Assembly (NCBI RefSeq): GCF_005473905.2
Contig: NZ_CP061336.1
Span: 3,588,501-3,652,500, forward strand
DNA: 64,000 bases
Origin: Ruminiclostridium herbifermentans
Lineage (GTDB): Bacteria; Bacillota; Clostridia; Acetivibrionales; DSM-1351
Direction: 5' to 3'
Position numbers and translations under genes: made by a program
The notes under the pieces: generated by a model
Database searches by the model: none
The model's input: only the letters and a program-made list of their open reading frames with translations
What the model was told of the DNA's origin: nothing
Part shown: piece after piece, positions 18,835 through 40,785 of the stretch
Position numbering within the stretch: position 1 is the stretch's first letter
Layout: every line of letters begins with the position of its first letter

Positions 18835-21800
18835 CTAGCCTTTGCTATCCAATATACAGTTTTTCTCATTTTCGATACCCACTACTTTATTGATGAATTC
18901 CTCTAAACTTATGTGAAGATTTTGAGACATCAATTGAAAAATATTAATTAATGTATTAATAATTTTCAATATTAAGTCCTCTGAAAATAATCTTTGTATA
19001 TAAGAAAGTTCAAATATTACTGTCTCTGCTGAAGTTACACAACTAAAGTATATTGGGGTTCCCTCCGGATTTTTCCCTAACTCAATTGTTTGAATATATC
19101 TATTATCATAAGGAATTCTTACATTATAATCTGAAGTAAAGTTAAAAATAACTTTAAACAAATCTCCTCGTACCATATCATTAATATCCATACTTGTAAA
19201 AATATCATCAATTTCCAAATCGGAGTGTTTTAGAACATCTAAAAACTCCTCACTTTGAGCAACTAAAATATCTTTTATTGTAAGCTTATTGTCAAGTTTA
19301 CACCTCATAGGAACAAGTTTAGTAAATAAACCAATTACAGATAATTCAGACATATGCTCTCTATCACAACCTATTACATTTGTACCTATGATAATGTCTC
19401 GTTTATTTTCAAAAGCACTTAAAAGAAGAATAATTGATGAACTAAAATAAATATATTCTGTAATGCCTATATCGTTACATTTGTTTCGAATTAAGTCCAA
19501 AGTTCTTTTCTCAATAATAAACTTTTTTTTCAATACCACATCATCATTATGTAGTATCAATTTCTTATCGCCCTTATCAGGTGATAAACAAACCGGATGA
19601 TCTCTTCTATACAACTTCTTTTTCCAAAATTTAATGCTTTCCTCACTCTTCTTTAAACATACTGAATTATAGTAGTGGTATACATCTCTTTTTATCTTAG
19701 GTAATTCAATGTTGTTGTAATATGCAAACACATCATTAATAAAAATACGTAAAGACATAAAATCAAAAATAGCATGATTAAAATCAAACAACATAATTTG
19801 ATTCAAATTAGTATCTTCAAATAATGTTATCTTGAATAAAGGTAGTTTCGACACATCAAAATATTGAACATATTTTTTGAGTTCTATTGTATCAACGTCT
19901 TCTTCTACTTTAATAAACTCAAAATATCCCGTGCAATTATCGTGTCGTTTCATCTTATACTTACTGCTGACCTTGAAAAAAGTTGTTCGAAGCATGGAAT
20001 GCCTTAAGACCATTTTTTTTAAAGCGTTTTCAAACAAACTTGCATTCAGATATAGAGATGATTTAACAGCATAGATCATATTACATTTATCTGCTGAAGT
20101 ATTATCTGATTCACTTTTTCTTAATTTTGCTTCATAGTCTAATACGATTTTTTGCATTGTATTAGCAAAGGCTTCATCCGCTCCTTCTATAGACAATTTT
20201 TCAATCTTTTCTCCTTTTATAGCCTCTTGCCTTATTTTATCTGCTATGTCGCCTATACTTTCGCAACTAAGTATATTTATCATACTAATCATGACATTCC
20301 AATGATTTTTAATTTGCGAATTTAATGTCATAGCAGCTAAAGAATCGCCACCCATACTAATGAAATTGTCATATAACGTTAGTTCCCTTACTTTTAATAC
20401 TTCTTTACACATTTTTAATAATTCTTCAGAATAATGATCAACAATAAATTCTTTGGATATTGTATTTGTTTTGAGTGCACATATCCTATAGTCTGGTAAT
20501 TTGCTTTTATCAAGTTTCCCATTTACTGTATATTCAAAATTTTTAACTGGAACAAAGTAATTTGGAATCATGTAGTATGGAAGATACTTTTTACAATGCG
20601 TTTTAATTGTCTCATAAGAAACATTATTTCTATCCAAATAGTAAAGTACCAAGACATCTTGCTCATTTTCTCTTACTACTATTGCTTTTGCTAAGGTGAT
20701 ACCCTTAATTTCTTTTATGATATCTTCTATCTCAGATAGTTCAATCCTAAAACCTCTTAACTTTATCTGATCGTCAACTCTTCCAAAATACTCAATATCT
20801 CCAGAGTCAGTATATTGTGCTATGTCTCCAGTTTTATAAATTCGTTTGTTCTTATCAAAGGGACTTTGAATAAAACTTCTATTTGTTAGTTCTTGTTGGT
20901 TTACATAGCCTACTGCTAATCCATCACCACCTATAAACAATTCACCTTTTACTCCTATAGGACATAATTCTAGGTTTTGATTTAAAATATACACCTGTGT
21001 ATTATAAATCGGTTTGCCAATTAGCATTCTATCCATTTCGCTCACAGAATCACCATTTATTTCCATGACTGTTGAATAGACACACGTTTCTGTTGGACCA
21101 TAATAATTAAGTAAAGTATACTGATTACCTTGAACTAATTCAAAATATCTTTTACATAACCCCAGCGGCAATGCCTCTCCACAAGAAATTAAATATCGTG
21201 GAAAGCTATGCATATTAATAGTTTCATTATAATTAAGCTGTGCTTCTAATCTGGTAGGGGTAATTTCTAAGCAGTGCAAATTTCTTTTGCTCAAATACTC
21301 ATAAAAAAGCTCACATGACATTTTAATATCATCGGGTATAATGTCTAATGTATTCCCTGTCAAAAGTGCTAAATAAATTTGACCAACAGATACATCAAAA
21401 ACAAATGGTGATAAAACACCAATAATTTTTACCTGCTGGTCATGCAATACCTTATCTTTAATAGAATTTACCAAATTAATTACACTGCTCTGTTTAATCT
21501 CAATTCCTTTTGGTTTTCCAGTAGATCCTGATGTGAATAATATGTATGCAGAACCACATTTATTATTTATTTTCTTCACTAAATTTGTATGCTTTTGTAC
21601 AACTAGTGAATTATACGAAAATGATATAGGAAGATTAAGTTTTTCCAATTCCTCTTTCTCAATCTTGTCAAAAACAATTGCTTTTGCCTGAGCTATTTGT
21701 AACATTGATATTATTCTTTCTAGTGGATATACTCTACTTAAAGGGAGATATATACAATTGCATTTAAGAATACTCAATATAGCTATAATATACTCATCAG

Positions 21801-22068
21801 ATTTCTCCATATATATTCCAATTATATCTCCACATTGAATGCCTTGACTTATCATATTTTCTGAAATAATATCTGTTAATTCATCAATTTCTTTATAAGT
21901 ATAACTCTTGTTATAGAATTTTATAGCACACCTATCAGGATATGTTTTTGCACATTTTTGAAAAATTTCTACTATATTTGTACTCTTATCATATTTATAA
22001 TCTGTTTTGTTAATCAAATCTACGATTGCATTAATATCCTTGAATTTGTCTAAAACTTTTCTACTCAT
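18835..22068 (-). CDS. Nonribosomal peptide synthetase module, A-PCP-C order, no thioesterase
   Basis: Residues 20-540 form an adenylation domain with LFTSGSTGKPKG, NYYGPTETCVYS, YKTGDIAQY and the catalytic lysine near NGKLDKS. A carrier domain follows with the phosphopantetheine serine in MGGDSLAAM (about residue 580). Residues about 640-1060 form a condensation-like domain whose usual HHxxxDG signature reads NHAIFDF, so first His and Gly are changed. Manual alignment to GrsA suggests specificity residues D-V-G-E-I-C-Y-V-Y; I do not match this to a known amino acid. There is no thioesterase. GAGG precedes the ATG. It is the last gene of the array, 47 bases after the permease. A phosphopantetheinyl transferase must be supplied from elsewhere. 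Confidence 0.92.
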   Translation of the reverse strand: MSRKVLDKFKDINAIVDLINKTDYKYDKSTNIVEIFQKCAKTYPDRCAIKFYNKSYTYKEIDELTDIISENMISQGIQCGDIIGIYMEKSDEYIIAILSILKCNCIYLPLSRVYPLERIISMLQIAQAKAIVFDKIEKEELEKLNLPISFSYNSLVVQKHTNLVKKINNKCGSAYILFTSGSTGKPKGIEIKQSSVINLVNSIKDKVLHDQQVKIIGVLSPFVFDVSVGQIYLALLTGNTLDIIPDDIKMSCELFYEYLSKRNLHCLEITPTRLEAQLNYNETINMHSFPRYLISCGEALPLGLCKRYFELVQGNQYTLLNYYGPTETCVYSTVMEINGDSVSEMDRMLIGKPIYNTQVYILNQNLELCPIGVKGELFIGGDGLAVGYVNQQELTNRSFIQSPFDKNKRIYKTGDIAQYTDSGDIEYFGRVDDQIKLRGFRIELSEIEDIIKEIKGITLAKAIVVRENEQDVLVLYYLDRNNVSYETIKTHCKKYLPYYMIPNYFVPVKNFEYTVNGKLDKSKLPDYRICALKTNTISKEFIVDHYSEELLKMCKEVLKVRELTLYDNFISMGGDSLAAMTLNSQIKNHWNVMISMINILSCESIGDIADKIRQEAIKGEKIEKLSIEGADEAFANTMQKIVLDYEAKLRKSESDNTSADKCNMIYAVKSSLYLNASLFENALKKMVLRHSMLRTTFFKVSSKYKMKRHDNCTGYFEFIKVEEDVDTIELKKYVQYFDVSKLPLFKITLFEDTNLNQIMLFDFNHAIFDFMSLRIFINDVFAYYNNIELPKIKRDVYHYYNSVCLKKSEESIKFWKKKLYRRDHPVCLSPDKGDKKLILHNDDVVLKKKFIIEKRTLDLIRNKCNDIGITEYIYFSSSIILLLSAFENKRDIIIGTNVIGCDREHMSELSVIGLFTKLVPMRCKLDNKLTIKDILVAQSEEFLDVLKHSDLEIDDIFTSMDINDMVRGDLFKVIFNFTSDYNVRIPYDNRYIQTIELGKNPEGTPIYFSCVTSAETVIFELSYIQRLFSEDLILKIINTLINIFQLMSQNLHISLEEFINKVVGIENEKNCILDSKG

Positions 22069-22115
22069 AAAGAAACCTCATTATAATTCATACTTTTCTG
22101 CATTAATATTAATTG

Positions 22116-22919
22116 TTACAAAAATAATATGTTTATTACAAATGGCAATAAAACAAATAATGCAATAATCTTCTTCTTTGATTTATCAGTAACATCAAAT
22201 CTAAACAAATAGTTAGCAACAATATACCCGATTAAACCCACCGATAATAATACTAAAATACTTAAAAGGCTGCTGTATTTTGAAGGATTTATATTATTTA
22301 ATGCTTCTAGTAAATCCATAGCATACGTCGTGGGTAACAATTCGCTAAATTTGATTAATGACTTAGGTAGTTGACTTGTTGGAATCATCAATCCTCCTAT
22401 TAACATAGAAGGTAAAAATATAATCTGAGCCAAAACCACAGTAACTGAAGTATTATCGGATATGCTTCCAATGATTAATGCTATTCCCGAACACGTTATA
22501 TACACACAAAAGAAAACAATTAACAAACTTATTAAGCTATATTTTGATTCTATATCAAACAACATAGGAGCTGTAAAGAATATAATACAAGACACTATAA
22601 AAGAATGTACTGCTGTAGAAATAGCTGGTACTAATAAAGTAGATATTTTAGAAATACCATTTATCTTATAGTTTCTATAAACACCATCATTACGTGAATT
22701 AACTATTTCATTTGGCATACCTAATAGAGTACTCACTATTACTGAAAATATTATCATTGCAGGAATAAGTGTTTCTGTAGAACCGCCATTAATTTGTGGC
22801 ATTATTCCTCCAATAAATAAGTAAAACACAATAGGGAAAAGGTAGTTCATAAGAAGTAATGTCTTTTCTCTTATCCCAAACAGAAAATTTAAAACTAAAT
22901 GTTTACCAAACGCTATCAT
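22116..22919 (-). CDS. ABC-2 type exporter permease
   Basis: The 267-residue membrane protein has about six hydrophobic segments and the ABC-2 family layout, including the segment PSMLIGGLMIPTSQLP before the last helices. Its ATG overlaps the stop codon of the ATPase gene by one base (TAATG), so the two are translationally coupled. It forms the membrane half of a BcrAB/DrrAB-style exporter. Position beside the NRPS and at the end of the biosynthetic array suggests it exports the product or gives self-protection. Confidence 0.88.
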   Translation of the reverse strand: MIAFGKHLVLNFLFGIREKTLLLMNYLFPIVFYLFIGGIMPQINGGSTETLIPAMIIFSVIVSTLLGMPNEIVNSRNDGVYRNYKINGISKISTLLVPAISTAVHSFIVSCIIFFTAPMLFDIESKYSLISLLIVFFCVYITCSGIALIIGSISDNTSVTVVLAQIIFLPSMLIGGLMIPTSQLPKSLIKFSELLPTTYAMDLLEALNNINPSKYSSLLSILVLLSVGLIGYIVANYLFRFDVTDKSKKKIIALFVLLPFVINILFL

Positions 22920-23812
22920 TATACATTTCTCCTTCCAGCTGTCAATTCAACAAATTTCTCTTCAAGGGATTCTCGCTCAATTCTCAAGTCTACTAGTGTA
23001 TCTCCATTGCTTTCAATAAGGTTTAATATTTGAGATACCTTTTCACCTGGCATATTCGAAATAAATGTATAATAATCATCCACACACTCTCCATCAGAAT
23101 TTTGCAGACTATTTCCAACAGTACGTACAAAAATCTTACTATTTTTCGATCCCATGGCGGTGATTTCCTTAGGTGTACCTTCCACTATCTTTTTGCCCTT
23201 CATCATAATAAGTATTCTACTACAAAGTTTTTCTGCTTCTGCCATATCGTGTGTGGCGAGAATGATTGATGTACCATTACAGCTAAGAGTTTTCATCACC
23301 TCGTGTAATTCTACCCTTGCTTGAACATCTAAAGCAGCGGTTGGCTCATCTAAAATAAGAACTTTAGGATTATGTATAGTTGCCAAAGCTAGAACTAATC
23401 TTCTTTTTTCTCCGCCTGAAAGGTCTTTATATTTTTTGCGGAACTTCTCATTCAATCCCAACCTTTCTACAATTTCTTGATTAGGTTTAACATTATGACA
23501 TGCTGCGAAGAAATCAATTGCTTCTTTGACAGTGATAGATGAAGGTAGTCCTGAAGACTGAAGTTGAACGCCTAAAACTTGCTTAATCTTTGCACTATCT
23601 TTGATAGGATTATATCCACATATTTCTATAGTACCACTATCGGGTATTCTTAGTCCCTCTACACATTCAAGTAAACTTGTCTTTCCTGCTCCATTTGGTC
23701 CAAGCAATCCAAATATTTCGCCTTCATTTACCTCAATACTGATATTGTCTACAGCTACATAATCTCCATAACTCTTTCGCAAATTATCAATTCTTACTCG
23801 TGCTTTCCCCAT
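22919..23812 (-). CDS. ABC transporter ATP-binding protein (drug-export type)
   Basis: The 297-residue protein has all ATPase motifs: Walker A GPNGAGKTS, Q-loop region QLQSSGLP, signature LSGGEKRR, Walker B VLILDEPTAALD and the switch histidine in LATHDM. A C-terminal extension of about 80 residues is typical of DrrA/BcrA-like exporters. It pairs with the overlapping permease gene. The start at 23812 has only a modest site (GAGGATTGG, rather distant), and the 189-base gap before it is the largest in the array, so a local promoter is possible. Confidence 0.92.
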   Translation of the reverse strand: MGKARVRIDNLRKSYGDYVAVDNISIEVNEGEIFGLLGPNGAGKTSLLECVEGLRIPDSGTIEICGYNPIKDSAKIKQVLGVQLQSSGLPSSITVKEAIDFFAACHNVKPNQEIVERLGLNEKFRKKYKDLSGGEKRRLVLALATIHNPKVLILDEPTAALDVQARVELHEVMKTLSCNGTSIILATHDMAEAEKLCSRILIMMKGKKIVEGTPKEITAMGSKNSKIFVRTVGNSLQNSDGECVDDYYTFISNMPGEKVSQILNLIESNGDTLVDLRIERESLEEKFVELTAGRRNV

Positions 23813-24001
23813 CGTTTTTTAATCACCAATCCTCATTTTTTAATTTTAACCTTCTCTTTTATACTATGTAACAGCTTGTCATTTAAACCATCTGCAATAC
23901 TGCTAGCTTACTCTGAGGTAAGCATCCTTCTTGTAACTGCCCACAATGTAAAAACTCTAAGCTCCACTTAGTAATATCCTAATTACAAGGTTATATAGAT
24001 T

Positions 24002-24211
24002 TTAACACTTTTTACAAAATTCCTCAACACTAATAAATGTATTAATGACTAATGCGATAGCAATTACGTTAATAACTTCTTTAATATCACTTGTATCAAT
24101 AACAATTAATGCTAACCCAGCAACTGAAAATGCAAATGCTACTATCCTCAATACTAACCTAAAATATTTTTCTATTTTTTTCTTCATTACTTTTTTATAG
24201 TGATTAAACAC
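24002..24211 (-). CDS. Small membrane protein, unknown
   Basis: The 69-residue product starts at a GTG with GGAGGAAGATA directly upstream, a strong site that makes it a real gene. A basic N-terminus (KKVMKKKIEKYF) is followed by two hydrophobic segments (VLRIVAFAFSVAGLALIVI and VINVIAIALVINTFISV) and a CKKC end. I do not recognise a family. Lying between the radical SAM gene and the ABC exporter, it could be an immunity or transport accessory protein; that is only inference. Confidence 0.7.
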   Translation of the reverse strand: MFNHYKKVMKKKIEKYFRLVLRIVAFAFSVAGLALIVIDTSDIKEVINVIAIALVINTFISVEEFCKKC

Positions 24212-24252
24212 TATCTTCCTCCTGTATAGATTTTTGAATCGTACTCATTTCA

Positions 24253-25953
24253 TTATTTTACTGCGCATAACATTTTAAAAAGTTTAGCAGCAGAATCGCC
24301 TTCTGGATTTTGCATTCCATTAATTATTTTAAGTTTTCTACTATTTTGTTTAACTATTTCTTCAAAACTCCTTCCGTTTATTTCATTAAACCCATATAAC
24401 TTTGAATTAGAAGTCTGAACATCCGTATGCTCATTTCTATACATTTTTAAATTGTAAATTAGCAAATCCCTATAATTAGTATTATCTTTAATCAATTCTA
24501 TCCCATATCTTTCTGGGAACCTACCAATTAAGCTATTAGGCACAACAAAATATTCATTTACCCAAAAATAATTAATATACTTTTTATTTCTTGTTATGAA
24601 ATCACTTGTTTCATTGAAATCTTCATCAAGCTCTTGCGGTAATCCGATAATAACCTCTATGTCTGACCAAATTTTCAAATCATAACACCATTTTAAAACT
24701 TGCTCTGCATGATCCAAATCAATTTGCTTATCTATCAAATTAATAATCTTTTGACTTCCTGATTCAAATCCGAAAGTCAATTTCGTACAACCAGCCTTCT
24801 TCATTAATTCAAGCCTCTCATAAGTCAGATTATTAAATCTACCACAATCAGACCAATATATTTCGAGGTTTTCATCAATTACCTTATTGCAAAACTCATC
24901 AGCAAACTTGCCTGAAAAATTAAATGCATTATTTAAGAAATAGAAATATTTGGTATTATATTTAGCTATTAATTCTTTAATATCTTTAATTACTTGATCT
25001 GGATTGCCACCTACAATACTTCCTCTTTCGTAATCACTCTGAGTACAAAAAGCACAGCTATAAGGACAATTGTAATTAAAAATATATGGTAATATTAATT
25101 TTTCGGTAACATCTTTTCTTTTCATTCTATTATATTTGCTAACGATAAGTCCTGGACTATCAAGATAAGCATCTGGCCACTTATAGTTATAAATTAAATT
25201 TTCACTAATCGCTTTCTGTTTTTTTTGTTCTGTCCCCTGCTCATCTATCATGCACCTGGTATAAAAAGACATGTCTAAGTCTCCCCAATCAGGTTTGATA
25301 ACTATTGGTTTTTCAGTTTTATTTGAAATAATTTCACCATCCACTAGGCGAACCATACCTGGAAGTTGATTAAACCAATCCTCATCCTTATTCTCATCTA
25401 AGCCCTTGATTATTGCTTCTATAACCTTTTCGCCAGGGCCATTTACTATAAACTTAAATTTACTTAATACAATTTCCCACATTTCTTGAAAAACACTTTT
25501 AAAAATGTACAGAAATGATACGTTATTTCCACCAATTTCAACAGGCTTATTATATTTTTTCTTTAAATACTTAGCTAATATAAAACCTAATTGCATTTGA
25601 ACAAATGAAAAATCGCCGCCTATAGAGACTCCAAAAAAATCATATTCACTTAAATCCATATTCTCTAAAAGAAGTGAAATAAGTCGATCCATTTCTTCAT
25701 CTTCACCTGTAAGAATATAATTCTTAAAAACATCTATATTAAATACCATTTCTAATTGCTTATGATTATACTCATCTTTAAAATTTTTAGATAATGATAT
25801 ATTTAAATCTTTAATGGTTACATTATATCCTTTTTCCTCAAGATACCCACAAATTACGCCGACGCCTAAATTAATTGTAAGTCTTGTTAAGTTCTCCGGA
25901 TACTGTAAACTATTTTCTGATGGTGACATAAGCAAACATACATTTTTTATCAT
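24253..25953 (-). CDS. Radical SAM protein with B12-binding-like N-terminal domain
   Basis: I place the start at 25953 (MIKNVCLLMSP), where GGAGG is 7 bases upstream; a longer frame would overlap the previous gene. The protein has 566 residues. An N-terminal Rossmann-like region (about 1-180) resembles cobalamin-binding domains but lacks an obvious DxHxxG, so it may not hold B12. The radical SAM core has CPYSCAFCTQ (CxxxCxxC), FYFLNNAFNFSG, and LTFGFESGSQ. Members of this class carry out methylations or rearrangements at unactivated carbons, but the substrate is unknown. It follows the hydrolase gene by 17 bases. Confidence 0.85.
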   Translation of the reverse strand: MIKNVCLLMSPSENSLQYPENLTRLTINLGVGVICGYLEEKGYNVTIKDLNISLSKNFKDEYNHKQLEMVFNIDVFKNYILTGEDEEMDRLISLLLENMDLSEYDFFGVSIGGDFSFVQMQLGFILAKYLKKKYNKPVEIGGNNVSFLYIFKSVFQEMWEIVLSKFKFIVNGPGEKVIEAIIKGLDENKDEDWFNQLPGMVRLVDGEIISNKTEKPIVIKPDWGDLDMSFYTRCMIDEQGTEQKKQKAISENLIYNYKWPDAYLDSPGLIVSKYNRMKRKDVTEKLILPYIFNYNCPYSCAFCTQSDYERGSIVGGNPDQVIKDIKELIAKYNTKYFYFLNNAFNFSGKFADEFCNKVIDENLEIYWSDCGRFNNLTYERLELMKKAGCTKLTFGFESGSQKIINLIDKQIDLDHAEQVLKWCYDLKIWSDIEVIIGLPQELDEDFNETSDFITRNKKYINYFWVNEYFVVPNSLIGRFPERYGIELIKDNTNYRDLLIYNLKMYRNEHTDVQTSNSKLYGFNEINGRSFEEIVKQNSRKLKIINGMQNPEGDSAAKLFKMLCAVK

Positions 25954-25970
25954 ATACATTCCTCCAATAA

Positions 25971-26987
25971 TTATGGTAATTTTACCAATAATTCTTTCAT
26001 AGCGTTTATCATACAATCTTGATATAATTCCATATCAGTTATTGTAAAAATATACTTATTGGTAATTTCATTTGTAAACTCCCAATCAACCTTACCATTA
26101 ATATCACATTGGGCTTGTATTTTTTCATATTTAAAAATTGCATTATCCCCAACTGTATCTGCCGCTACAATGTTGCCGCTTTTTGTCACCACTTTACCTG
26201 CGGCTGATAAAATTCCAGCTGTTGACCACATGTTTCTATAGTCATTACAAATTGTATTAAATACTTCACTGCGTTCTGCTTTACTTAAATAATTAAGCCA
26301 ATTAATATCATTACTTTTACCTAGTGCATATGTGAAATAGTTTTTAACACTCTTTGATAAATACGGTAAAATTGCCTCTTGTTTAAATTTGTAATATGTA
26401 GCATATTTTTCAACTGTATAATTATCTACAAAATTCATATGAGATGGTAGCCAATACAACGGACACGGAGCATTAAACACAATATTAAAAGATCTTGGGT
26501 CTAACGAAACGTTATATTCCGTTTTGCTCAAGCTATTGCTGACTCCAGCATTTAAATATATTGCCGCACATTTTTCCTTAAATAGTTCTGGAAACAACAT
26601 AATCGCAATAGCAACATCCTTACATGAACCTACCATCTGTATAACTACCTTTTCATTTGAATTACGCAATGTTCTTTCTATCATTTTTACTGCAGCGAAC
26701 TCATTTGCTTTCTCATTATACATTGATGAATTAACTAAACTGGGTTTAATTTTTGTACCTATCGCAACTGGTACATAACTTCCTGTTATATAATTCATCT
26801 GAGATATGGCAAATACAGCTGGATCTCCATGATTCAGTCTAATTTTAGGTACATTATCCGCTATTATACCAACTAAATTAATTTCATTAAGATAATACAA
26901 GGCAAACTGACATGCCAAATCCCAGTGATCATCTGCATCTAAATGGTGGTGGTATATGTCAGTTTGATGTATTACAATAGGTTTCAT
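25971..26987 (-). CDS. Nucleoside-hydrolase-like protein
   Basis: The 338-residue protein begins with an Asp-rich segment, TDIYHHHLDADDHWDLAC, comparable to the calcium-binding DxDxxxDD of inosine-uridine nucleoside hydrolases. It continues with the family-like VVIQMVGSCKDVAIAI. AGGAG precedes the ATG. Such enzymes split the N-glycosidic bond of ribonucleosides. In this cluster it might trim a nucleoside precursor, release a sugar, or dispose of 5'-deoxyadenosine from radical SAM reactions. The spacing of the Asp residues differs from the classic motif, so substrate and even activity are uncertain. Confidence 0.7.
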   Translation of the reverse strand: MKPIVIHQTDIYHHHLDADDHWDLACQFALYYLNEINLVGIIADNVPKIRLNHGDPAVFAISQMNYITGSYVPVAIGTKIKPSLVNSSMYNEKANEFAAVKMIERTLRNSNEKVVIQMVGSCKDVAIAIMLFPELFKEKCAAIYLNAGVSNSLSKTEYNVSLDPRSFNIVFNAPCPLYWLPSHMNFVDNYTVEKYATYYKFKQEAILPYLSKSVKNYFTYALGKSNDINWLNYLSKAERSEVFNTICNDYRNMWSTAGILSAAGKVVTKSGNIVAADTVGDNAIFKYEKIQAQCDINGKVDWEFTNEITNKYIFTITDMELYQDCMINAMKELLVKLP

Positions 26988-27021
26988 ATTCTATCTCCTA
27001 AAAAATTATTCTCTAAAATTA

Positions 27022-28260: not shown

Positions 28261-28279
28261 ATTAAGAGTATTTCTCCTC

Positions 28280-29176
28280 CTACTTGGTAATACTTGAGAA
28301 TTCATCCCAATTATTGAACAACAAGTACTCCTTATAAACGCCGCCACATTTATCAGCTTCTATACAACTCTTACATGGTTTCCCAAGCTTCCTTTCTTGA
28401 CCACGCATAAAAGTATCATAATCTTCGATAATAGTAGTTCTAAAGAGTAATTTATACTGTTCTTCCTCCCAATTAATACAGTACTTTGTATATTCACCAA
28501 GTACACAATATGGAAATCCTTCAAGAGTACAAACCACTCCTCTTTTTGCAACATCGTCTACGGCTGCTTTTACTTGTGTCATTATTTCATTATATCTAGG
28601 TGTTACGACTTCATAATTAGTAAGTGCTTTTCCTGTTGGATGCATGCCTGAAATATTTATATGGTATACTCCTAAGTCCATACAATTATTTACTATTTCT
28701 ATCAAATCATCTTTGTTTTGTTTACATACAACTGTATTGGTTCTAACTCTAGCACCTAAACTTAATACATTTTTTATTCCTTGAACTGCTTCATCATAAC
28801 TACCTTCAATAGAAGTCAAATAATCATGTTGTTTCGCATCTTTCCCATGCATTGATACTACAAAAAGAGAGACTCCTAGATCCACAACTTTTTTTGCAAA
28901 TTCCATATCGCTTAACAGCCTAGCATTTGTTTGAAGAGAGACTTCTGGATAATTAAACTCTTTAACGTCATTTAAAAATTCAAAAAACTCAGGTATACAG
29001 GTTGGTTCTCCTCCATGTATATTAACCCTTTGAAATCCTTTATTTGCATTTGATTTTAAATAGTTATATACAACCTTCCTATTCACTCTTTCTTTTGCTT
29101 CTTGGTGTGAGTTAACCACACAAAACTTACATGAGTTATTACATTGATCCGTCAAATGAATACTTAAATTTTTCAA
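28280..29176 (-). CDS. Radical SAM protein with Cys-rich C-terminus
   Basis: The start is a TTG at 29176 with AAAGGGA 9 bases upstream. The radical SAM motif is CNNSCKFC near residue 12, followed by VNIHGGEPTC and VSMHGKD. The C-terminal part holds further cysteines (FPYCVLGE, YCINWEE, PCKSCIEADKC) that could bind an auxiliary iron-sulfur cluster, as in SPASM/twitch enzymes that modify peptides. It differs from the three other SPASM-like paralogues of this array and is more like sulfatase- or peptide-modifying enzymes in general form. The next gene starts 19 bases after its stop. Confidence 0.85.
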   Translation of the reverse strand: MKNLSIHLTDQCNNSCKFCVVNSHQEAKERVNRKVVYNYLKSNANKGFQRVNIHGGEPTCIPEFFEFLNDVKEFNYPEVSLQTNARLLSDMEFAKKVVDLGVSLFVVSMHGKDAKQHDYLTSIEGSYDEAVQGIKNVLSLGARVRTNTVVCKQNKDDLIEIVNNCMDLGVYHINISGMHPTGKALTNYEVVTPRYNEIMTQVKAAVDDVAKRGVVCTLEGFPYCVLGEYTKYCINWEEEQYKLLFRTTIIEDYDTFMRGQERKLGKPCKSCIEADKCGGVYKEYLLFNNWDEFSSITK

Positions 29177-29228
29177 TTCAATTCGTCCCTTTCTTTCAAA
29201 GCTTCAAATAATCACATATTTTTATTTG

Positions 29229-30131
29229 TTATGGATTGTTAGATACTTCGTATTTTTTTAAATTTTTATATAGCTTACACTTATAGCAAAAGTCACATGT
29301 TTTAAATTCATTGTAACGTTCACCATTCCATATTTCTTCAAATGTACTCTCAAATATATTACCTAAATAAAATTCCTCTTTTAAACCAATACAACATGGA
29401 TAAACTTTACCCTCAAGAGTAATATAAGGTAATATTCGATCCCAACTAGTACATTTTAATGAATTGGTTGAAGATGTAATCATAAGTTTTCCGCTTAAAC
29501 TTATATCATTTGTGTAACTCAAATAATGTTCAAGTTCTTCAGAATTTACATCTTTCATATCCTCTTCGTTAATATCAAGTGTAAAATTAATTGACATAAC
29601 CTTATTTCTTTTAGCAAATTCTATCATTTCAGGGATATTACGATAATTGTATTTATTTACTGTACAGTTAATAACGATTACAGGAATACTAGCTTTCCTT
29701 GCATTTACTAAATTGCTTATCATATTGTTCCAATTATAGTTTTCAGCAATTTTTTTCATGCCCTCTTCTGTTGGTTCATCAACAGAAAATACTATTACTT
29801 TTAAATTTCCAGCTTTATTTAGTTCCTTAAAATTGATTGCAACAGTTCCGCTTGTTATTAATAAAACATTTTTGTCTAGTAGCGAAATTACATCATATAT
29901 GTATGGGTATACCATTGGCTCCCCAATTCCACAAATAACAACATTCTCAAATTCCTTGATTTTTTCCTTTATAATATTAAAGTCCTCTAATTCAAGATTT
30001 TTGTTTTTTCTATCTACTTTTTCTCTTGTACAATATATACAATTCAAAGGACAATATGTAGTCAACTCAAGAGCGATTGCATTAGACTTCAGTCTAACCA
30101 ATTCATGAATATAGTTTTCCTTTTCATTCAT
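29229..30131 (-). CDS. Radical SAM/SPASM-like protein, paralogue C
   Basis: The 300-residue protein has CPLNCIYC (radical SAM cluster), VICGIGEPMVYP, and a C-terminal auxiliary-cluster region with PYITLEGKVYPCCIGL, a downstream LGNIFESTFEEIW, and CDFCYKCKLY. The SPASM-type ending is typical of enzymes that modify ribosomal peptides or other bound substrates. It aligns with the products of 30136-31083 and 31959-32816. AAGAAGGTGA precedes the ATG, only 4 bases after the stop of the upstream gene. Confidence 0.87.
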   Translation of the reverse strand: MNEKENYIHELVRLKSNAIALELTTYCPLNCIYCTREKVDRKNKNLELEDFNIIKEKIKEFENVVICGIGEPMVYPYIYDVISLLDKNVLLITSGTVAINFKELNKAGNLKVIVFSVDEPTEEGMKKIAENYNWNNMISNLVNARKASIPVIVINCTVNKYNYRNIPEMIEFAKRNKVMSINFTLDINEEDMKDVNSEELEHYLSYTNDISLSGKLMITSSTNSLKCTSWDRILPYITLEGKVYPCCIGLKEEFYLGNIFESTFEEIWNGERYNEFKTCDFCYKCKLYKNLKKYEVSNNP

Positions 30132-30135
30132 ACAA

Positions 30136-31083
30136 TCACCTTCTTTCTAAATTACAAAACTCAGTCATATCACATATCTTACACTTATCACCAGAGATGT
30201 AGTCTAAATAAATTGGATTTGTTTTCATATCATCAAATGCATCCACTTTAATATTTCCTAAAACCTCTTTTTTGTTTAATCCATATGCACAATAGTACAT
30301 ATTTCCATTTACATCTATATACGGCATAATATGATCATGAGTAATGCAACAGTATGAATTAAAAGGATTTTCCATAACAATACCATATCTTTTTGCTTTA
30401 TCCATTGCCTTGTTAAACTGTTCAACTAAAATCTGATGCTGCTCTTTTACTAACTCGTAATTACCCCACGGCAAAGAGAAATGAATACCACTAAATCCAT
30501 ATTTAAAAGCAAAATCAACCATGTTAACGATATCTTCAATATTAGATTTATTGATAGTACAATTAATAATTGATGTTACAAATTTACGTTTCCTTAATGC
30601 TTGCTTACAATATTTCTTAAGGTTCTCTAGATTTGTTAACAAATTATCATAATTATAATTTTCACCGCAGATATCAACTACTTTTTCTCTTGAAACTGAA
30701 TCAATGGAAAAAATAAGAATATCTACATTTTCCATCTCACTTAACTTATCAAAATCAACTAGTATCGTTCCACTGGTTATTATAGTTATCTTATAATCAC
30801 TTAAATGTTGTAACATCCTATAAAAGTCTTTATGCAGAAAGGCTTCTCCTATTCCACAAAACGTAATCCTATTAATAAGCGGTTGCTGTTTTATTATACT
30901 TTTAAGGTATAAGAACTCATCAAATGATAATGTTTTGTTGTGTATCTTTCTTTCACAATATACACAATTAAGAGGGCAACAGGTGGTTATCTCAATCGAG
31001 ACAGATTTCGTACTATTTTTTAATAAACTAACTGGATTCATTTCTTTTATTTGTACACACTTATATGTATACAACCTCCCCAT
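30136..31083 (-). CDS. Radical SAM/SPASM-like protein, paralogue B
   Basis: Up to 315 residues long, it has CPLNCVYC, TFCGIGEAFLHK and a SPASM-type end with PYIDVNGNMYYCAYGL, LGNI and CKICDMTEFC. The start is uncertain: the first ATG at 31083 itself overlaps GGGGAGG, and the next in-frame ATG is 14 codons later at 31041 with a poor site. It is one of three clearly related radical SAM genes in this array, interrupted by the nucleotidyltransferase gene. The peptide or carrier it modifies is not known. Confidence 0.85.
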   Translation of the reverse strand: MGRLYTYKCVQIKEMNPVSLLKNSTKSVSIEITTCCPLNCVYCERKIHNKTLSFDEFLYLKSIIKQQPLINRITFCGIGEAFLHKDFYRMLQHLSDYKITIITSGTILVDFDKLSEMENVDILIFSIDSVSREKVVDICGENYNYDNLLTNLENLKKYCKQALRKRKFVTSIINCTINKSNIEDIVNMVDFAFKYGFSGIHFSLPWGNYELVKEQHQILVEQFNKAMDKAKRYGIVMENPFNSYCCITHDHIMPYIDVNGNMYYCAYGLNKKEVLGNIKVDAFDDMKTNPIYLDYISGDKCKICDMTEFCNLERR

Positions 31084-31120
31084 ACTATAATTGGAGTACT
31101 TTTATAAATTACAAAAGGAT

Positions 31121-31942
31121 TTATACTACACTATTGCGATATAATAATGAACTATTTTCAACCATTAACTTTGTTGAATTATATTCTTTAATATTACCTA
31201 AATCAAAACATTGTCCTTCTGCAAAGAAATGGCAAAAAACCTCAAAATTCCGATGAATTGCTAAATTAAAAATATCGCTCAAAATTATTTCTTTTTTATC
31301 TTGAACTTTACTTAACTCTTCACAATAATACTCATGAATAAGTTCTGTAAACCTCTTACTCCAAATAGCAATATTCCAAGTATTATTAATGTCTATTTCC
31401 TTAGGTTTATCATATATTTTTAGAACTCTTTTCGTTTTTAAATCATATTCAACTGGCGCTAAACTCTGTGGATTGTCTGTTGGAAATACCCCTAAAGTTA
31501 AATCTGATTTGTTTTCCTTATGTACATCATATAACACTTCGAAGCATTCAAATGGTAATACAATTGTATCTGGCATTCCCATAAAAACAGTTTTATTGCG
31601 AATCCAAGGATACGCTTCTTCAAAAGCCACCGGCATACCATATAAATCGGAGTCCATATCTTGGCACGCATAAACAATATTAGTTTTATACTGGCTTCCA
31701 TTACCATAGAATCTCAGCAGCTCACTCTTGTTTTCATTAATAACAATAACCAGATTACTGACACCCGCTCTTACCATATTTTCAATTGTATATTCACCCA
31801 GAACCTTTGGTATCTCTCGCATTTCACCATTACTTTCATATATTCTGCTTCCAACAGTCGTAAGTTCTTTAAAGGCACGAAATGGCTTCATTCTCTTACC
31901 TAAACCACCAGATGGAATAATGCCAATAATATCATCATCCAT
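31121..31942 (-). CDS. Sugar-1-phosphate nucleotidyltransferase-like protein
   Basis: I place the start at 31942 (MDDDIIGIIPSGG), with GGAGG 7 bases upstream; a longer frame would run into the preceding gene. The nucleotide-binding signature reads PSGGLGKRMKP, close to the GxGxR of NTP transferases, and a second acidic site is seen in GMPDTIVLPF. Related enzymes (such as RmlA) make dTDP- or UDP-sugars. It would supply activated sugar to the two GT-B-like proteins of the array. The sugar cannot be named, since no dehydratase or epimerase gene is present. Confidence 0.83.
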   Translation of the reverse strand: MDDDIIGIIPSGGLGKRMKPFRAFKELTTVGSRIYESNGEMREIPKVLGEYTIENMVRAGVSNLVIVINENKSELLRFYGNGSQYKTNIVYACQDMDSDLYGMPVAFEEAYPWIRNKTVFMGMPDTIVLPFECFEVLYDVHKENKSDLTLGVFPTDNPQSLAPVEYDLKTKRVLKIYDKPKEIDINNTWNIAIWSKRFTELIHEYYCEELSKVQDKKEIILSDIFNLAIHRNFEVFCHFFAEGQCFDLGNIKEYNSTKLMVENSSLLYRNSVV

Positions 31943-31958
31943 TTTTATCCTCCTTTCC

Positions 31959-32816
31959 TTACTCATTAACCATTGAGCTATACATACTACAGGTTTTACA
32001 GTATTCTCCCGAGTTAAATCGACTATATCTTTTACTCTCAAACAGCTCTTTAAACTCATTAGTCACTAAATTCCCAATTCGGGGTATTCTATTATAATGA
32101 TCACAGCAAGCTCTAATATTTCCACTTAGAGACACAAAAGGAATCGGCGCTCCCTTATAAAAACAATACTTTTCATAAGGACTTGAATATATTATTTTCT
32201 TCTCTTTTGCTTCTTCTTGTATCATATTAAGAATATTTTTAATTTGAACTGAATTTTCTTTAACCCAATCGGTACTATAAGTTGGCAATAACATATTCAG
32301 TTTACTGATTCCAAACTTACTGCAAAGACCTACTATATTAATAACATCTTCGATATTTGATTCAGTCATAACGCAGTTAATTTCTTTACTAATCTGAGGG
32401 TATTCCATTCCCGTTATTAAATTATCTTGTAATTTATTAAAATCATATTGTGAACACACCCTTCGAATAACTTCTTCATCCGCGCCATCAACAGAAAATG
32501 TCACAGATTCTACATTACCACTTTTTAATAACCGTTCATAATTAATTTTGACCGTGCCATTTGTAATTACAGCCACCTTTTTTTGGTATATTGCCAAATA
32601 TTCAACAACTTCATAAAATTGTGGATAAATAAGTTGTTCGCCCATCCCGCAAAGTGCAAACACTTCAACAAAGGGTAACTTTTGTACTATAGTAGTAAAA
32701 TCATCCCATTTTATGAAAGTTCCTTTTGATTTTGAACTACTTCTAAAGCAATATTCACAATTTAAATTGCATCGATCAGTAAGTTCCAGCATTATCTCTT
32801 TAGGTAATGTGAACAT
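31959..32816 (-). CDS. Radical SAM/SPASM-like protein, paralogue A
   Basis: The 285-residue protein starts at an ATG with CCGGAGGCG upstream. It shows CNLNCEYC, FALCGMGEQLIYP and a C-terminal PFVSLSGNIRACCDHY, IGNL and CKTC. These give the radical SAM cluster plus a SPASM/twitch-type auxiliary cluster. It is the first radical SAM gene of the array and the closest to the putative precursor. Its C-terminal half aligns with paralogues B and C, but the sequences have diverged enough to suggest different sites or reactions. Confidence 0.87.
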   Translation of the reverse strand: MFTLPKEIMLELTDRCNLNCEYCFRSSSKSKGTFIKWDDFTTIVQKLPFVEVFALCGMGEQLIYPQFYEVVEYLAIYQKKVAVITNGTVKINYERLLKSGNVESVTFSVDGADEEVIRRVCSQYDFNKLQDNLITGMEYPQISKEINCVMTESNIEDVINIVGLCSKFGISKLNMLLPTYSTDWVKENSVQIKNILNMIQEEAKEKKIIYSSPYEKYCFYKGAPIPFVSLSGNIRACCDHYNRIPRIGNLVTNEFKELFESKRYSRFNSGEYCKTCSMYSSMVNE

Positions 32817-32830
32817 ATATCGCCTCCGGA

Positions 32831-33715
32831 TTAATTATCTTCAACTAAATGCATATGAATCTCTCTTCTAACATTAACATTATCCTTTTTTTGCCTTGCA
32901 ATATAATTTTCAATCATGCTCCCATGAACAGGCACAAATGTTTTCAAGTCTAAAAGTAATGTTCCAGAGTAATAAGAATTTCCTTCCCTAACACCATTGA
33001 TTTGAGCATCTTCCATTTTTACTTTAGATTTATCACATATGTAATTAAAAACAGCACATTCACGATTCTTATAAAGAGAAACTCCCAAATAGACGGCTTT
33101 AAATTTACCATTTTTAAACAATGAATCATCCGAATATAATCCAAGCCCTATCTGTGCTTTTGATGATGAAAGCATCTCTACTTCAACATACTCTCCTATT
33201 TTTTCCGTACTTAAATCAATACATGAGAAGTATGTTGCAAAATTCTCAAAAGCTATCATATCATAGAGTTGCATGATATACAGATATACCGATGGCAATT
33301 TTGGAAATCTATCAAATGATTTATTGAATTTATCAACTTGATTTGCTACCTTTTCAAACACTTCAGCCTGAGAAATAAACTCGGCCTTCTCTTCAGTATC
33401 GGCACTAAGCAGAAAATATGGTATAGAATGTCCGGCCGCAAAACTCCAATTCATTGGACTACGTTCTGATGACTCAAATGTAGCTTTTTCTACATTAAGT
33501 CTGGTCAAAACACAAAAACTAGAGATTTGTTCCTCTATTACTCTTTTATATTCTGTACTTAATTTCTGCCACTTTAAAATCTCTCCGTGCGCGTCTAAAT
33601 ACATGTTCTGCATTCTTATTATGTATTTATCCTTAACGTCTGTATCCAAATTTATAGACCTTGGTAAAATTAAGTTATTAAAATATTCTTTAATTCCCAA
33701 ATTTTCATAATTCAT
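32831..33715 (-). CDS. Unknown protein of the biosynthetic array
   Basis: The 294-residue protein has no signal peptide, no membrane segment and no motif I recognise. Notable stretches are MNWSFAAGHSIPYFLLSAD near residue 90 and a beta-rich second half (GTLLLDLKTFVPVHGS). The first half is helical with several aromatic residues. It is tightly flanked by the GT-B gene (40 bases) and radical SAM A (14 bases), so it must belong to the same pathway. It could be a tailoring enzyme or a substrate-binding partner. Confidence 0.75.
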   Translation of the reverse strand: MNYENLGIKEYFNNLILPRSINLDTDVKDKYIIRMQNMYLDAHGEILKWQKLSTEYKRVIEEQISSFCVLTRLNVEKATFESSERSPMNWSFAAGHSIPYFLLSADTEEKAEFISQAEVFEKVANQVDKFNKSFDRFPKLPSVYLYIMQLYDMIAFENFATYFSCIDLSTEKIGEYVEVEMLSSSKAQIGLGLYSDDSLFKNGKFKAVYLGVSLYKNRECAVFNYICDKSKVKMEDAQINGVREGNSYYSGTLLLDLKTFVPVHGSMIENYIARQKKDNVNVRREIHMHLVEDN

Positions 33716-33755
33716 ATATTTAACACTCTACTTTCCAAATATTACTTAATGAAGC

Positions 33756-35015
33756 CTATTTATTATGTCTTTCTTGTTCAATCTCATCAATAATTTGTTG
33801 TGGCGTTGTTAATTTAAGAACCTTGCTGATATATTCTTTCTGTTTTTCTTTAAGAACAGTAACTTTGTCTTCATTAAATAAATATTCTTGTAGTTTTTCT
33901 AAAACCTCATCATACTTAAATAATTGAACTACTTCATATGTATCTGTATATTCATTATCTGATAACACTGCTTCAAGCAATCGAAACCACCCAAAAAAAC
34001 CTGCCCTAAAAGGGAATACACACTTTATGTCTTTGGCCATTTTCTGGTACCACTCTGGACGCTTTAAAAGAGTTTTTTGGAGCTTTGCAAAATCAATATT
34101 CTTATAATTTTGAAATACAATACATGGAATACTGCCGAAAATCGCTTTTGATAAAGTAACAGACACAACATTTGTAGTAATAAATAAATCAGATGACAAT
34201 AAACACTCATCAAATTCAGTAGGGTTTAAATAACCGAAATTCATATATGTAACTTTACCACATTGATTTATATCTATATCCCACTTATTGGGACCAACAT
34301 GAACTAATGTAATTGGAACGTTTAAATCTTTTAAATAATTATGCAAAATAGTTGGCAACCATTTCATAAGCATACCCAGAGATGGCATATCATGAAAATT
34401 TATACTTTCCCATGAAGAAGATGAGTACATTATCATTTTATTGCATTCTGAAACGCCTAACTTCTTTCTTACTTCTAACTTACGTTCGATTGATAACTCT
34501 AAATCTCTGTCATATAAACTAAAACATTTCACTTTTTGATCTTGGCTAGTTCTATTAATATTTAAAGGACAATTTCTTATAACGTAATCGCAGTCATCAA
34601 GCAATGGCGGTAATATTTCGAAATTTCCTCCATAATAGTCTGGTTTACATTTAGTTGACAAATATTCATATTCATCAATTCCAAGAATAGGTATTGCATA
34701 TTGTTTCAACATTTGCATACTTACACCAGACCACAACCTAGAATATTCAATTGTATATATATCTGAAAGCAATATATAATCTGGTTTATATGAATTAATT
34801 AAATTGTCTACAATAGTTTTGTTTATAAATGCTCCATCATTAATGTTTAGTGATATATAATCTTGTCCTCTTTCTTGCAAATAAGAAACAAATTTTGATG
34901 GAACTAAAAACTTAACTTGACATTTATTTTTATCCAGCCTACTTCCAAATTCATATCCAATTGTTAACTCTCCAGCAGATATCTCACTTAGTACGATAAT
35001 TAAGACTTTATTCAT
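33756..35015 (-). CDS. GT-B-like glycosyltransferase (possibly DUF6365-like)
   Basis: The 419-residue protein has the same plan as the product of 27022-28260. The N-terminal SEISAGELTIGYEFGSRL matches YGELLIALQFAKR there. The C-terminal half has MIMYSSSSW, ITLVHVGPNKW, NPTEFDECLLSSDLFITTN, SIPCIVF and FPFRAGFFGWFRLLE in the same order. These fit the donor-binding half of a GT-B fold. AAGGAT precedes the ATG, 10 bases after the upstream stop. Two related transferases suggest two sugars or two sites on the product. Confidence 0.68.
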   Translation of the reverse strand: MNKVLIIVLSEISAGELTIGYEFGSRLDKNKCQVKFLVPSKFVSYLQERGQDYISLNINDGAFINKTIVDNLINSYKPDYILLSDIYTIEYSRLWSGVSMQMLKQYAIPILGIDEYEYLSTKCKPDYYGGNFEILPPLLDDCDYVIRNCPLNINRTSQDQKVKCFSLYDRDLELSIERKLEVRKKLGVSECNKMIMYSSSSWESINFHDMPSLGMLMKWLPTILHNYLKDLNVPITLVHVGPNKWDIDINQCGKVTYMNFGYLNPTEFDECLLSSDLFITTNVVSVTLSKAIFGSIPCIVFQNYKNIDFAKLQKTLLKRPEWYQKMAKDIKCVFPFRAGFFGWFRLLEAVLSDNEYTDTYEVVQLFKYDEVLEKLQEYLFNEDKVTVLKEKQKEYISKVLKLTTPQQIIDEIEQERHNK

Positions 35016-35025
35016 AAAATAATCC

Positions 35026-35664
35026 TTACATTTTAAAATATTTATTCTTCAATTCTAAAACATCATTTGCTGATTCATGTTCGCCAGAGGATCTCAATTT
35101 TGTTTCCAAATCATCAAATATAAGAATTAAGAAGTCTGAAATTACAGTAATCGGAGATGCCTCAAGTTTCTTTGCTTCAGCAATATACTCTTTTGCTTTC
35201 TCAGATTCTCCAAATGACCAATACAATCCTGAAATTAACAAATAAGGAATAACATAATATGGCCTGAACTCTCCTTTTTTCTGTTGTTCAATCATATCCA
35301 TTATTTCCTCAATTATTTCATCCTCATCCCTAAAACTATTAGGTAACATTAATTGAATTCTTATTTTATACATTTTTGCTAGCCAGTAATTAGGCTGTTC
35401 CTCTATTATCTGTTCAAACATATCAAGAGCATCTTCTACATTTGTTTTGCTTTCCAATACATCACTAGCATTATTAGCAACTAAGTTAAACAAGCCAAAC
35501 ATCAATTTTGAACTATTGTCAGCTCCAGCCTTCTCGGCTTCTTTTCTTAGTGTTTCTCTCAAAGTTTCTATTCTCTCAGTCATTCTTGAAAGTAACGCAA
35601 CCGTTCTAAATGCTTCGCAGTCGGACTGGCTAATTGGCAAAAATTCACCCACAAGCGTACTCAT
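35026..35664 (-). CDS. Helical (TPR-like) protein coupled to the putative precursor
   Basis: The 212-residue protein is almost entirely amphipathic helix. Paired-helix units such as NVEDALDMFEQIIEEQPNYW and GESEKAKEYIAEAKKLEAS have the spacing and aromatic/alanine pattern of tetratricopeptide repeats. Its ATG overlaps the stop of the preceding 94-residue protein by one base (TAATG), and its ribosome binding site lies inside that gene's last codons. Such tight coupling suggests a stoichiometric partner, perhaps a recognition or scaffold protein for the precursor. Confidence 0.72.
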   Translation of the reverse strand: MSTLVGEFLPISQSDCEAFRTVALLSRMTERIETLRETLRKEAEKAGADNSSKLMFGLFNLVANNASDVLESKTNVEDALDMFEQIIEEQPNYWLAKMYKIRIQLMLPNSFRDEDEIIEEIMDMIEQQKKGEFRPYYVIPYLLISGLYWSFGESEKAKEYIAEAKKLEASPITVISDFLILIFDDLETKLRSSGEHESANDVLELKNKYFKM

Positions 35665-35948
35665 TATATGTCCTCCTCGTCTGCCTCTTCTGCATTAAGT
35701 TCTTCTTCAGCATCAGGTGTATACACTGCAGAATCCGCTGAAAAATACTCTTCAAGATTTTCTGGAGTAAGTTTTTCTAAGTCTTCCCTTCGAAGTGATT
35801 TTACTAACAATTGCTGTACTTCAGTTAATTTAAAATTTTTCATTGCCTCGTCCGGATCTTCAATTAATAATGTTTTGAATTCTTGATCCAATACCGCTTT
35901 CTCAATAAGTTCCTTAATTTGCGTTTCATCATTACTAAAATTGTTCAT
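35664..35948 (-). CDS. Putative RiPP precursor or carrier peptide with leader-like N-terminus and acidic tail
   Basis: I choose the second Met (35948), because AGAGG is 8 bases upstream; this gives 94 residues. The middle segment FKTLLIEDPDEAMKNFKL resembles the nitrile-hydratase-like or Nif11-like leader pattern (FRxxLLxDPxxALxxxGL) used by RiPP precursors. After a second helix (SLRREDLEKLTPENLEEYF) comes a short YFSADSAVYTPDAEEEL stretch and a strongly acidic end rich in Glu and Asp. It is the first gene of a 16-gene array with five radical SAM genes. A processed core might be within the last 25-30 residues, or the protein may stay intact as a carrier. The call is inference. Confidence 0.55.
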   Translation of the reverse strand: MNNFSNDETQIKELIEKAVLDQEFKTLLIEDPDEAMKNFKLTEVQQLLVKSLRREDLEKLTPENLEEYFSADSAVYTPDAEEELNAEEADEEDI

Positions 35949-36272
35949 AAATTTCGCCTCTTTCATTTTTTATTAATAGTTTCAATTACAAAAATAGACT
36001 ATTATTTACCAAGCAATTCATATTTTCCTTCATAAAAATATAATCTATATAAATCTAAATAAATGTATTTATGGTTATATGATTTTATATTTCTATAATA
36101 CACGTACATTATAAAACAAAATAATAAATACACATTGCTTTTCACCCATAATAAAGCAACCCTAACAAAACAAACCCTTTTATTTATTAATTATACATGA
36201 ATCACCATTATTAATCAATATCTTACATAACATATTATATTTAGAATGTATAATATATTTTTCAAATAAACG

Positions 36273-40660: not shown

Positions 40661-40687
40661 TGACCTCCAAAAGAGAAAGGATTAAGC

Positions 40688-40785
40688 TATAAGCTCTGTC
40701 CTTTTGCCTGAGAGACTGGTAAATAAATAATTATCTACCTTGCACCTTCGGCGCCCAAACGGGACTCTCCAGAGAACGATTCTCT
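40688..40785 (-). promoter_or_regulatory. Glycine riboswitch (single aptamer visible)
   Basis: The minus-strand leader of the symporter shows TCTGGAGAGTCCCG, then GCGCCGAAGGTGCAA and CTCTCAGGCAAAAGGACAGAG, the conserved core of gcvT-type glycine aptamers. Only one aptamer could be seen. Upstream, 40800-41421 contains no gene and nothing else I recognise. Confidence 0.92.

Follow-up and report, generated by a model that had tools for sequence, protein, structure and literature searches.

A 64,000-nucleotide stretch of the Ruminiclostridium herbifermentans genome (contig NZ_CP061336.1, positions 3,588,501 to 3,652,500; hereafter the window) carries an array of 16 open reading frames (ORFs), all of them minus-strand (35948 to 18835), that is one representative of a recurrent biosynthetic system. 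The array begins with a small peptide in which a leader domain of the NHLP/Os1348 clan is followed by a strongly conserved, cysteine-free segment. Its other members include two DUF6365 proteins that appear to be glycosyltransferase-like, radical S-adenosylmethionine (SAM) enzymes, a protein without a family (unk294) and an ABC exporter (Table 1). The best reading is a cysteine-free, conserved-core pathway that resembles those for ribosomally synthesised and post-translationally modified peptides (RiPPs). The further proposal that the genes together form a single biosynthetic unit, whose product would be a glycopeptide or peptide-derived glycoside that is exported, stands at an even chance in our estimation.

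The comparison set consists of 19 genomes, the window's included, from the Bacillota and the Micromonosporaceae, which were found through the precursor or unk294 and in which duplicate records were merged. Genes were counted with profile hidden Markov models built from the same loci, using manually chosen thresholds. All 19 genomes have the precursor (by selection for most of them), the TPR-like protein, unk294 (counted in A. straminisolvens though divided over two frames) and at least two DUF6365 proteins. The radical SAM enzyme rSAM_D and the ABC ATPase are each present in 18, the nucleotidyltransferase NTPtr in 15 and the B12-type radical SAM enzyme in 14. Rarer are the SPASM radical SAM proteins (10), the non-ribosomal peptide synthetase (NRPS) protein (3) and the nucleoside hydrolase (1). 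The lower counts are minima, because several loci, for example those of A. straminisolvens and bin105, are cut by contig or fetched-sequence ends. A preliminary description of this DNA had left it to be seen whether the gene set recurs elsewhere; it is co-conserved across the 19 genomes, with a regularity that by informal judgement is too great for chance.

Paired surveys for the precursor and for DUF6365, which to judge by the genome handles covered identical sets of genomes, agree completely. Strong precursor matches and DUF6365 matches above the cut-off both mark exactly G000, G005, G007 and G354 among 391 Clostridia, and exactly G431, G432, G493, G500, G509 and G513 among 200 Micromonosporaceae. 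There are thus 10 positives and no discordant genome among 591, a figure that is uncorrected for kinship and in which three of the four Clostridia belong to one genus. Dropped from these counts were weak precursor matches (E 1e-6 to 1e-3) covering only part of the leader, of which there were two in the Clostridia and 26 in the Micromonosporaceae, and a weak DUF6365 match below the cut-off in G389. Two of the six strong precursor matches in Micromonosporaceae (Catellatospora and M. sonchi) were already among the 12 loci that a search with the precursor alignment recovered from 352 genome-contig stretches. A search of the family of L. phytofermentans (250 genomes) gave two matches, both of them known already. 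A search for unk294 in 197 relatives returned five genomes, including the window's own, and similar neighbours are present in the other four. The single-protein scan of genome contigs with unk294 gave 12 stretches and the scan of viral contigs with the precursor gave 58, none of which was confirmed in either case. Neither protein was found in plasmids, and the viral contigs were searched with the precursor only.

In the window's precursor, the leader occupies amino acids 10-67 and the conserved segment, EEYFSADSAVYTP, amino acids 66-78, after which there is an acidic tail. The Os1348 NHLP-clan model NF038399 is matched by all 15 precursors in the alignment, including that of the window (E<=0.01; best 3.3e-13), in agreement with the leader-like peptide of the preliminary description. 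The window's own match scores slightly below the cut-off (38.9 bits against 40) and stops at amino acid 67, which is the segment's second Glu. Mean conservation across the 19 genomes is 87% for the segment, whose bounds were set after the alignment was inspected, 64% for the leader and 46% for the tail. Seven residues of the segment do not vary in any genome (F, D, Y, T, P, one of the E and one of the A), and the pair V-Y is found in 18 precursors and I-Y in the remaining one. Cysteine is absent from segment and tail in all 19, and the tails are acidic throughout. Searches of the precursor sequence against the PDB yielded weak matches, with an E of 0.0026 at best, to entries for nitrile hydratase and for NHLP.

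One mark of RiPPs, besides covalent modification and proteolytic release of the precursor, is a precursor gene that encodes a leader-type domain and lies next to genes for modifying enzymes, and this arrangement is found here. The variable core behind a conserved leader that is common, and not obligatory, in RiPPs is not found: the anticipated pattern of a conserved leader and a variable tail is reversed at the core position, and the only variable part is the acidic tail. This most-conserved segment therefore argues against the model first offered for the array, an ordinary RiPP antibiotic with a variable core, sugars and one non-ribosomally added residue. A leader-like peptide, glycosyltransferase-like proteins and an NRPS protein do lie together in one array, but variation is confined to the tail and the NRPS protein is present in just 3 of 19 genomes, and we regard that model as quite unlikely. 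Its leader and GT-B proteins, and the co-conservation of the genes, hold up; its variable core and non-ribosomal residue do not, and its sugar on the peptide is putative. Sactipeptides and ranthipeptides need core cysteines for their thioethers. The absence of cysteine from segment and tail rules against assignment to either class, and a most-conserved segment without cysteine makes it less likely that radical SAM enzymes form products of the thioether type on the core.

The GT-B-like character earlier ascribed to two proteins of the array is borne out by a structure model of one of them. The AlphaFold2 model of GTB1 has a mean predicted local distance difference test (pLDDT) score of 91.3, and its best structural match is HepE with UDP-glucose (Z 24.0, 321 residues, root-mean-square deviation (rmsd) 3.8). 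Matches returned by Foldseek and VIA-align are almost all GT-B-fold enzymes, such as BshA, PimA, MshA, CalG, SpnG and GtfA, and antibiotic glycosyltransferases and UDP-GlcNAc 2-epimerases are matched at Z 21-23. Searches of the PDB with DUF6365 sequences gave weak matches only (best E 0.027). From the model for GTB1, and by homology for GTB2, the DUF6365 proteins are predicted to have a GT-B fold and to be glycosyltransferase-like. In a quick tree of 44 rows, from which fragments of <330 amino acids were excluded, GTB1 and GTB2 form separate clades (Shimodaira-Hasegawa-like approximate likelihood ratio test 99 each), and four actinobacteria carry an extra GTB1-type copy. Because each clade spans both phyla (Bacillota and Micromonosporaceae), the system seems to have had a pair of such enzymes ancestrally, and GTB2 looks like an old paralogue of GTB1. 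Glycocins are glycosylated RiPPs and would share with the proposed product a sugar on a ribosomal peptide. The present system differs from them by the lack of cysteine in segment and tail and by its two DUF6365 GT-B proteins and set of radical SAM enzymes.

All five radical SAM proteins that had been reported in the array carry CxxxCxxC. The earlier division into three SPASM-type enzymes, one other and one B12-type stands, with the qualifications that rSAM_B falls below the SPASM cut-off and that the B12-type is assigned by similarity: the B12-binding domain PF02310 is matched in four of 13 aligned members (E<=1) and not in the window's protein. The nearest PDB relative of rSAM_D by sequence is cytosylglucuronate decarboxylase, and SkfB and PqqE, which act on peptides, come next; one row of the alignment used (A7, L025:19176-20090) is a wrong paralogue, which slightly weakened this profile search. 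For the B12-type enzyme the two nearest PDB relatives by sequence are a tryptophan methyltransferase (the best match) and the apramycin enzyme AprD4. Since the two enzymes have neighbours of both kinds, sugar and peptide substrates are both possible. Another radical SAM protein, nearest to YydG epimerases, has homologues in 6 of the 19 clusters. Three additional tandem radical SAM-like genes lie in R. papyrosolvens (L030:2247-5161), the first of which is nearest to the YydG peptide epimerases (94.9 bits, cut-off 300). The host genome as a whole contains 66 radical SAM matches (63 above the cut-off), including the five in the array and several other dense groups.

A conserved Val-Tyr, radical SAM enzymes and a glycosyltransferase are also characteristic of mycofactocin; PMC3023750 describes an invariant Val-Tyr and a glycosyltransferase there. 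One could therefore propose that the V-Y (or I-Y) pair, encoded as it is beside radical SAM and glycosyltransferase-like genes, is converted to a glycosylated redox cofactor. However, the mycofactocin C-terminal Cys-Gly-Val-Tyr is not present in any of the 19 precursors, in which the pair is internal and precedes T-P and the acidic tail. No radical SAM protein of the window's array exceeds the TIGR03962 cut-off of 265 (best 58.1), and the array has a B12-type radical SAM enzyme and DUF6365 GT-B proteins, whereas the mycofactocin enzyme is of group 2 (PF00535). The ABC ATPase is found in 18 of 19 genomes here, and mycofactocin is said in PMC3023750 to lack transporters. In addition, a sporadic distribution (10 of 591 genomes) better suits a secondary metabolite. 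We consider the cofactor explanation highly unlikely.

For the preferred conserved-core pathway, the gene set, its recurrence, the conserved segment and the GT-B fold of one DUF6365 model stand as results, and we infer the following course, including the attachment of sugars and its site, the order of steps, the substrates, release and the role of each finishing enzyme. The ribosome would make the 94 amino acid precursor, whose NHLP-type leader might dock the enzymes, perhaps through the TPR-like protein, a proposed adaptor. The RmlA-like NTPtr would supply a nucleoside diphosphate sugar, and GTB1 and GTB2 may then add sugars sequentially to the cysteine-free segment, most plausibly at Tyr76 or Thr77 of EEYFSADSAVYTP. 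Perhaps rSAM_D and the B12-type enzyme, joined by SPASM enzymes in ten Bacillota clusters, alter the sugar or the peptide by chemistry that does not form thioethers. A strain-specific finisher would decorate the product, which here could mean addition of an amino acid by the NRPS protein and elsewhere of pyruvyl, carbamoyl or amino groups, and the ABC pair would export it.

Several observations weigh against this pathway. The leader also has invariant columns, and the segment might owe its conservation to docking and not be a core that is modified. None of the 16 proteins of the window's array matches a peptidase family. The radical SAM similarities lie far under family cut-offs and include, besides the peptide-acting SkfB and PqqE, a tryptophan methyltransferase as the best match of the B12-type enzyme, and the SPASM proteins, found in just 10 of 19 genomes, are all from Bacillota. 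GT-B folds include epimerases and glycosyltransferases with free acceptors, and for this reason the peptide is a candidate acceptor only. Furthermore, G513 has three further DUF6365 proteins (L104:7269-9836 and L105:10111-11376) that lie in polyketide-like loci in which no such precursor was seen, so that a peptide need not be what DUF6365 proteins act on. By score, GTB1 and GTB2 belong to this family (PF19892), and the proteins of these other loci score higher (402 to 445 bits). By eye, the genes there adjoin an antibiotic-type glycosyltransferase and FAD monooxygenases.

Another possibility is that the peptide is not a substrate, and is instead a small carrier or docking subunit that organises enzymes for making a modified oligosaccharide or glycoside in free form. 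Conservation of the NHLP-like part is that of a folded domain, PMC7726476 mentions X-ray analysis suggesting an Os1348 dimer, and the polyketide-like setting of other DUF6365 proteins fits as well. Yet conservation peaks where the leader domain ends and just beyond, in the core position and with an invariant Y-T-P, and several of the weakly matched radical SAM families are peptide maturases. We judge a carrier role unlikely.

No published description of such a system was found in the titles and abstract openings searched, a coverage that excludes subscription papers and most preprints; the earlier statement that no described pathway with this composition was known agrees with this result, and the same literature gave no mention of DUF6365. 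Among known systems, the NHLP/Os1348-clan precursors, including that of the Pseudomonas Os17 cluster OS3, are alike in having a leader-like domain and a small precursor followed by modification genes and a transporter. The OS3 cluster encodes an acetyltransferase together with a peptidase-like protein, and the text of PMC7726476 contains neither 'glycosyl' nor 'radical'. In contrast to OS3, the present array has the conserved cysteine-free segment F-x-x-D-x-A-V-Y-T-P. There may also be some likeness to pearlins and other scaffold-peptide products such as ammosamide, in which a small molecule is built on a reusable peptide (PMC12715798). However, pearlins arise from C-terminal additions whereas the conserved segment here is internal, and no PEARL-type enzyme (PF04738) was matched at E<=0.1 among the 16 proteins.

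The system links several radical SAM enzymes, a beta-rich protein outside any known class and DUF6365, a family of unknown function, with a single conserved cysteine-free peptide site, which makes its chemistry directly testable, and the gene set can be used as a marker to find more clusters. If sugars were built on the peptide, ribosomal peptides would be primers for radical-tailored saccharides, and RiPP and saccharide-antibiotic biosynthesis would be joined. A more far-reaching and distinctly tentative idea, which we think rather improbable, is a new natural-product class in which a conserved ribosomal segment primes a sugar chain built by two GT-B enzymes, remodelled by radical SAM enzymes and completed by interchangeable finishers (non-ribosomal amino acid, pyruvyl, carbamoyl or amino), with an age that spans Bacillota and Micromonosporaceae.

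The NRPS protein does not define the system, because it is found in 3 of 19 genomes. It has adenylation (A), peptidyl carrier protein (PCP; GGDSL at 573) and condensation (C) domains with active-site motifs, and no thioesterase domain was found in it. The consensus motif of C domains is HHxxxDG; this protein has NHAIFDF, in which the second His and the Asp are retained. Its pocket code, positioned by eye and alignment, is DVGEICYVYK, whose first five letters are shared with an ornithine code; no substrate is claimed. Also present by family searches, as described earlier, are the nucleotidyltransferase, the PF01156 hydrolase and the exporter. Other genomes have interchangeable tailoring genes of a sugar-related type, for a pyruvyltransferase-like protein (4 of 19), a class III aminotransferase (4) or a carbamoyltransferase (2). 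For each of these and for the YydG-like radical SAM homologues, the assignment rests on Pfam or NCBIfam for one or two members and on BLAST for the others. In the window, this accessory place is filled by the A-PCP-C and nucleoside-hydrolase-like proteins. The NRPS protein of G513, seemingly A-PCP-C-A-PCP with an order that is partly inferred, may belong to a neighbouring pathway.

The NRPS and ABC end might instead make a small, free aminoacylated metabolite as a unit of its own and be no more than a neighbour of a peptide-glycosyltransferase unit. The only long gap of the array (189 bases) lies ahead of the ABC genes and 16 of 19 genomes lack the NRPS protein, but the ABC ATPase occurs in 18 of 19 clusters. 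Moreover, the L032 cluster also has a related A-PCP-C protein after the nucleotidyltransferase (37% identity; similar pocket code DVGDVAYVYK), in which the C domain is clipped at the sequence end and below the cut-off. A separate unit thus seems highly improbable to us.

Table 1. ORFs of the array, in the direction of reading (window coordinates)
Feature	Position	Strand	Remarks
Precursor, 94 aa	35664..35948	-	Alternative ATG at 35966
TPR-like protein, 212 aa	35026..35664	-	TPR_8 23.9 bits, below cut-off 25.7; TAATG overlap with precursor
GTB1, DUF6365, 419 aa, glycosyltransferase-like	33756..35015	-	PF19892 248 bits
unk294, 294 aa, core gene	32831..33715	-	Without family; predicted beta-rich barrel or curved sheet
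rSAM_A, radical SAM/SPASM	31959..32816	-	CNLNCEYC; above Pfam SPASM cut-off
NTPtr, sugar-1-phosphate nucleotidyltransferase-like (RmlA-like)	31121..31942	-	Below every NCBIfam cut-off
rSAM_B, SPASM-like end	30136..31083	-	Radical SAM; below Pfam SPASM cut-off
rSAM_C, radical SAM/SPASM	29229..30131	-	Above Pfam SPASM cut-off
rSAM_D, HxsC/MoaA-like radical SAM, core gene	28280..29176	-	In 18/19 genomes
GTB2, second DUF6365 protein	27022..28260	-	PF19892 234 bits; start corrected to 28260
Nucleoside-hydrolase-like protein	25971..26987	-	PF01156; window's cluster only, 1/19
B12-type radical SAM enzyme	24253..25959	-	By similarity; start corrected to 25959
69-aa protein, probable membrane protein by eye	24002..24211	-	No family above cut-off
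ABC exporter ATPase, DrrA-like	22919..23812	-	In 18/19 genomes
ABC-2 type permease	22116..22919	-	Family match
NRPS protein A-PCP-C, accessory	18835..22068	-	In 3/19 genomes

The leftward 16-gene layout with short gaps is as first described. Coding sequence makes up 97% of the array span, and 14 of 15 junctions have gaps of <=52 bases. Both of the one-base TAATG overlaps noted earlier are present, between the precursor and TPR genes and between the ABC ATPase and permease genes. None of the 10 terminator-like sites detected is a minus-strand site in an array gap (two are on the minus strand, both intragenic), which is weak evidence because no site was detected at the expected array end either. 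Promoter-like sites are near chance level (120 observed against 111.2 in shuffles) and play no part in the interpretation. A sigma-70-like match of 12/12 with a 16-base spacer is found at window 22945-22918, where the ABC ATPase gene ends and ahead of the permease.

The flanks appear unrelated to the array. A class II tRNA synthetase gene with an editing domain lies 886 bases upstream, and downstream there is a phosphorylase-family gene at 373 bases, then a ferritin-like gene and dockerin-bearing cellulases. No shared neighbourhood around proS or the phosphorylase gene that could bear on a horizontal insertion at this site was found, beyond the window's own, in the 12 genomes searched.

The model of unk294 is similar to the barrels of lipovitellin and ApoB (Z 13.2 over 212 residues, rmsd 4.2) and also to those of the outer membrane (Z 10-12), with Foldseek TM-scores of about 0.37 and a weak LolA-like resemblance. 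Because all these barrels resemble the model at such scores, its function is left unassigned. The window's unk294 matches no Pfam family and one NCBIfam entry far below the cut-off (E 0.047), and neither unk294 nor NTPtr has a match in the PDB by sequence. The A. straminisolvens homologue of unk294 (L018:7041-7957) lies in two overlapping frames, owing to a frameshift or assembly error.

The host genome, a single 4.8-Mb contig, contains a second, different RiPP-like locus (L106:18533-19255; G000:C1 ~3,776,500-3,777,300). It encodes two more NHLP-like precursors, one of which has a His/Ser/Asn/Tyr-rich tail, YHSNDSYHSNDSHHNSYGNHN, and these adjoin a number of radical SAM-like genes that include one with similarity to rSAM_D. 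Finally, there is a glycine riboswitch at window positions 40686-40782, located upstream of a sodium:alanine symporter gene.

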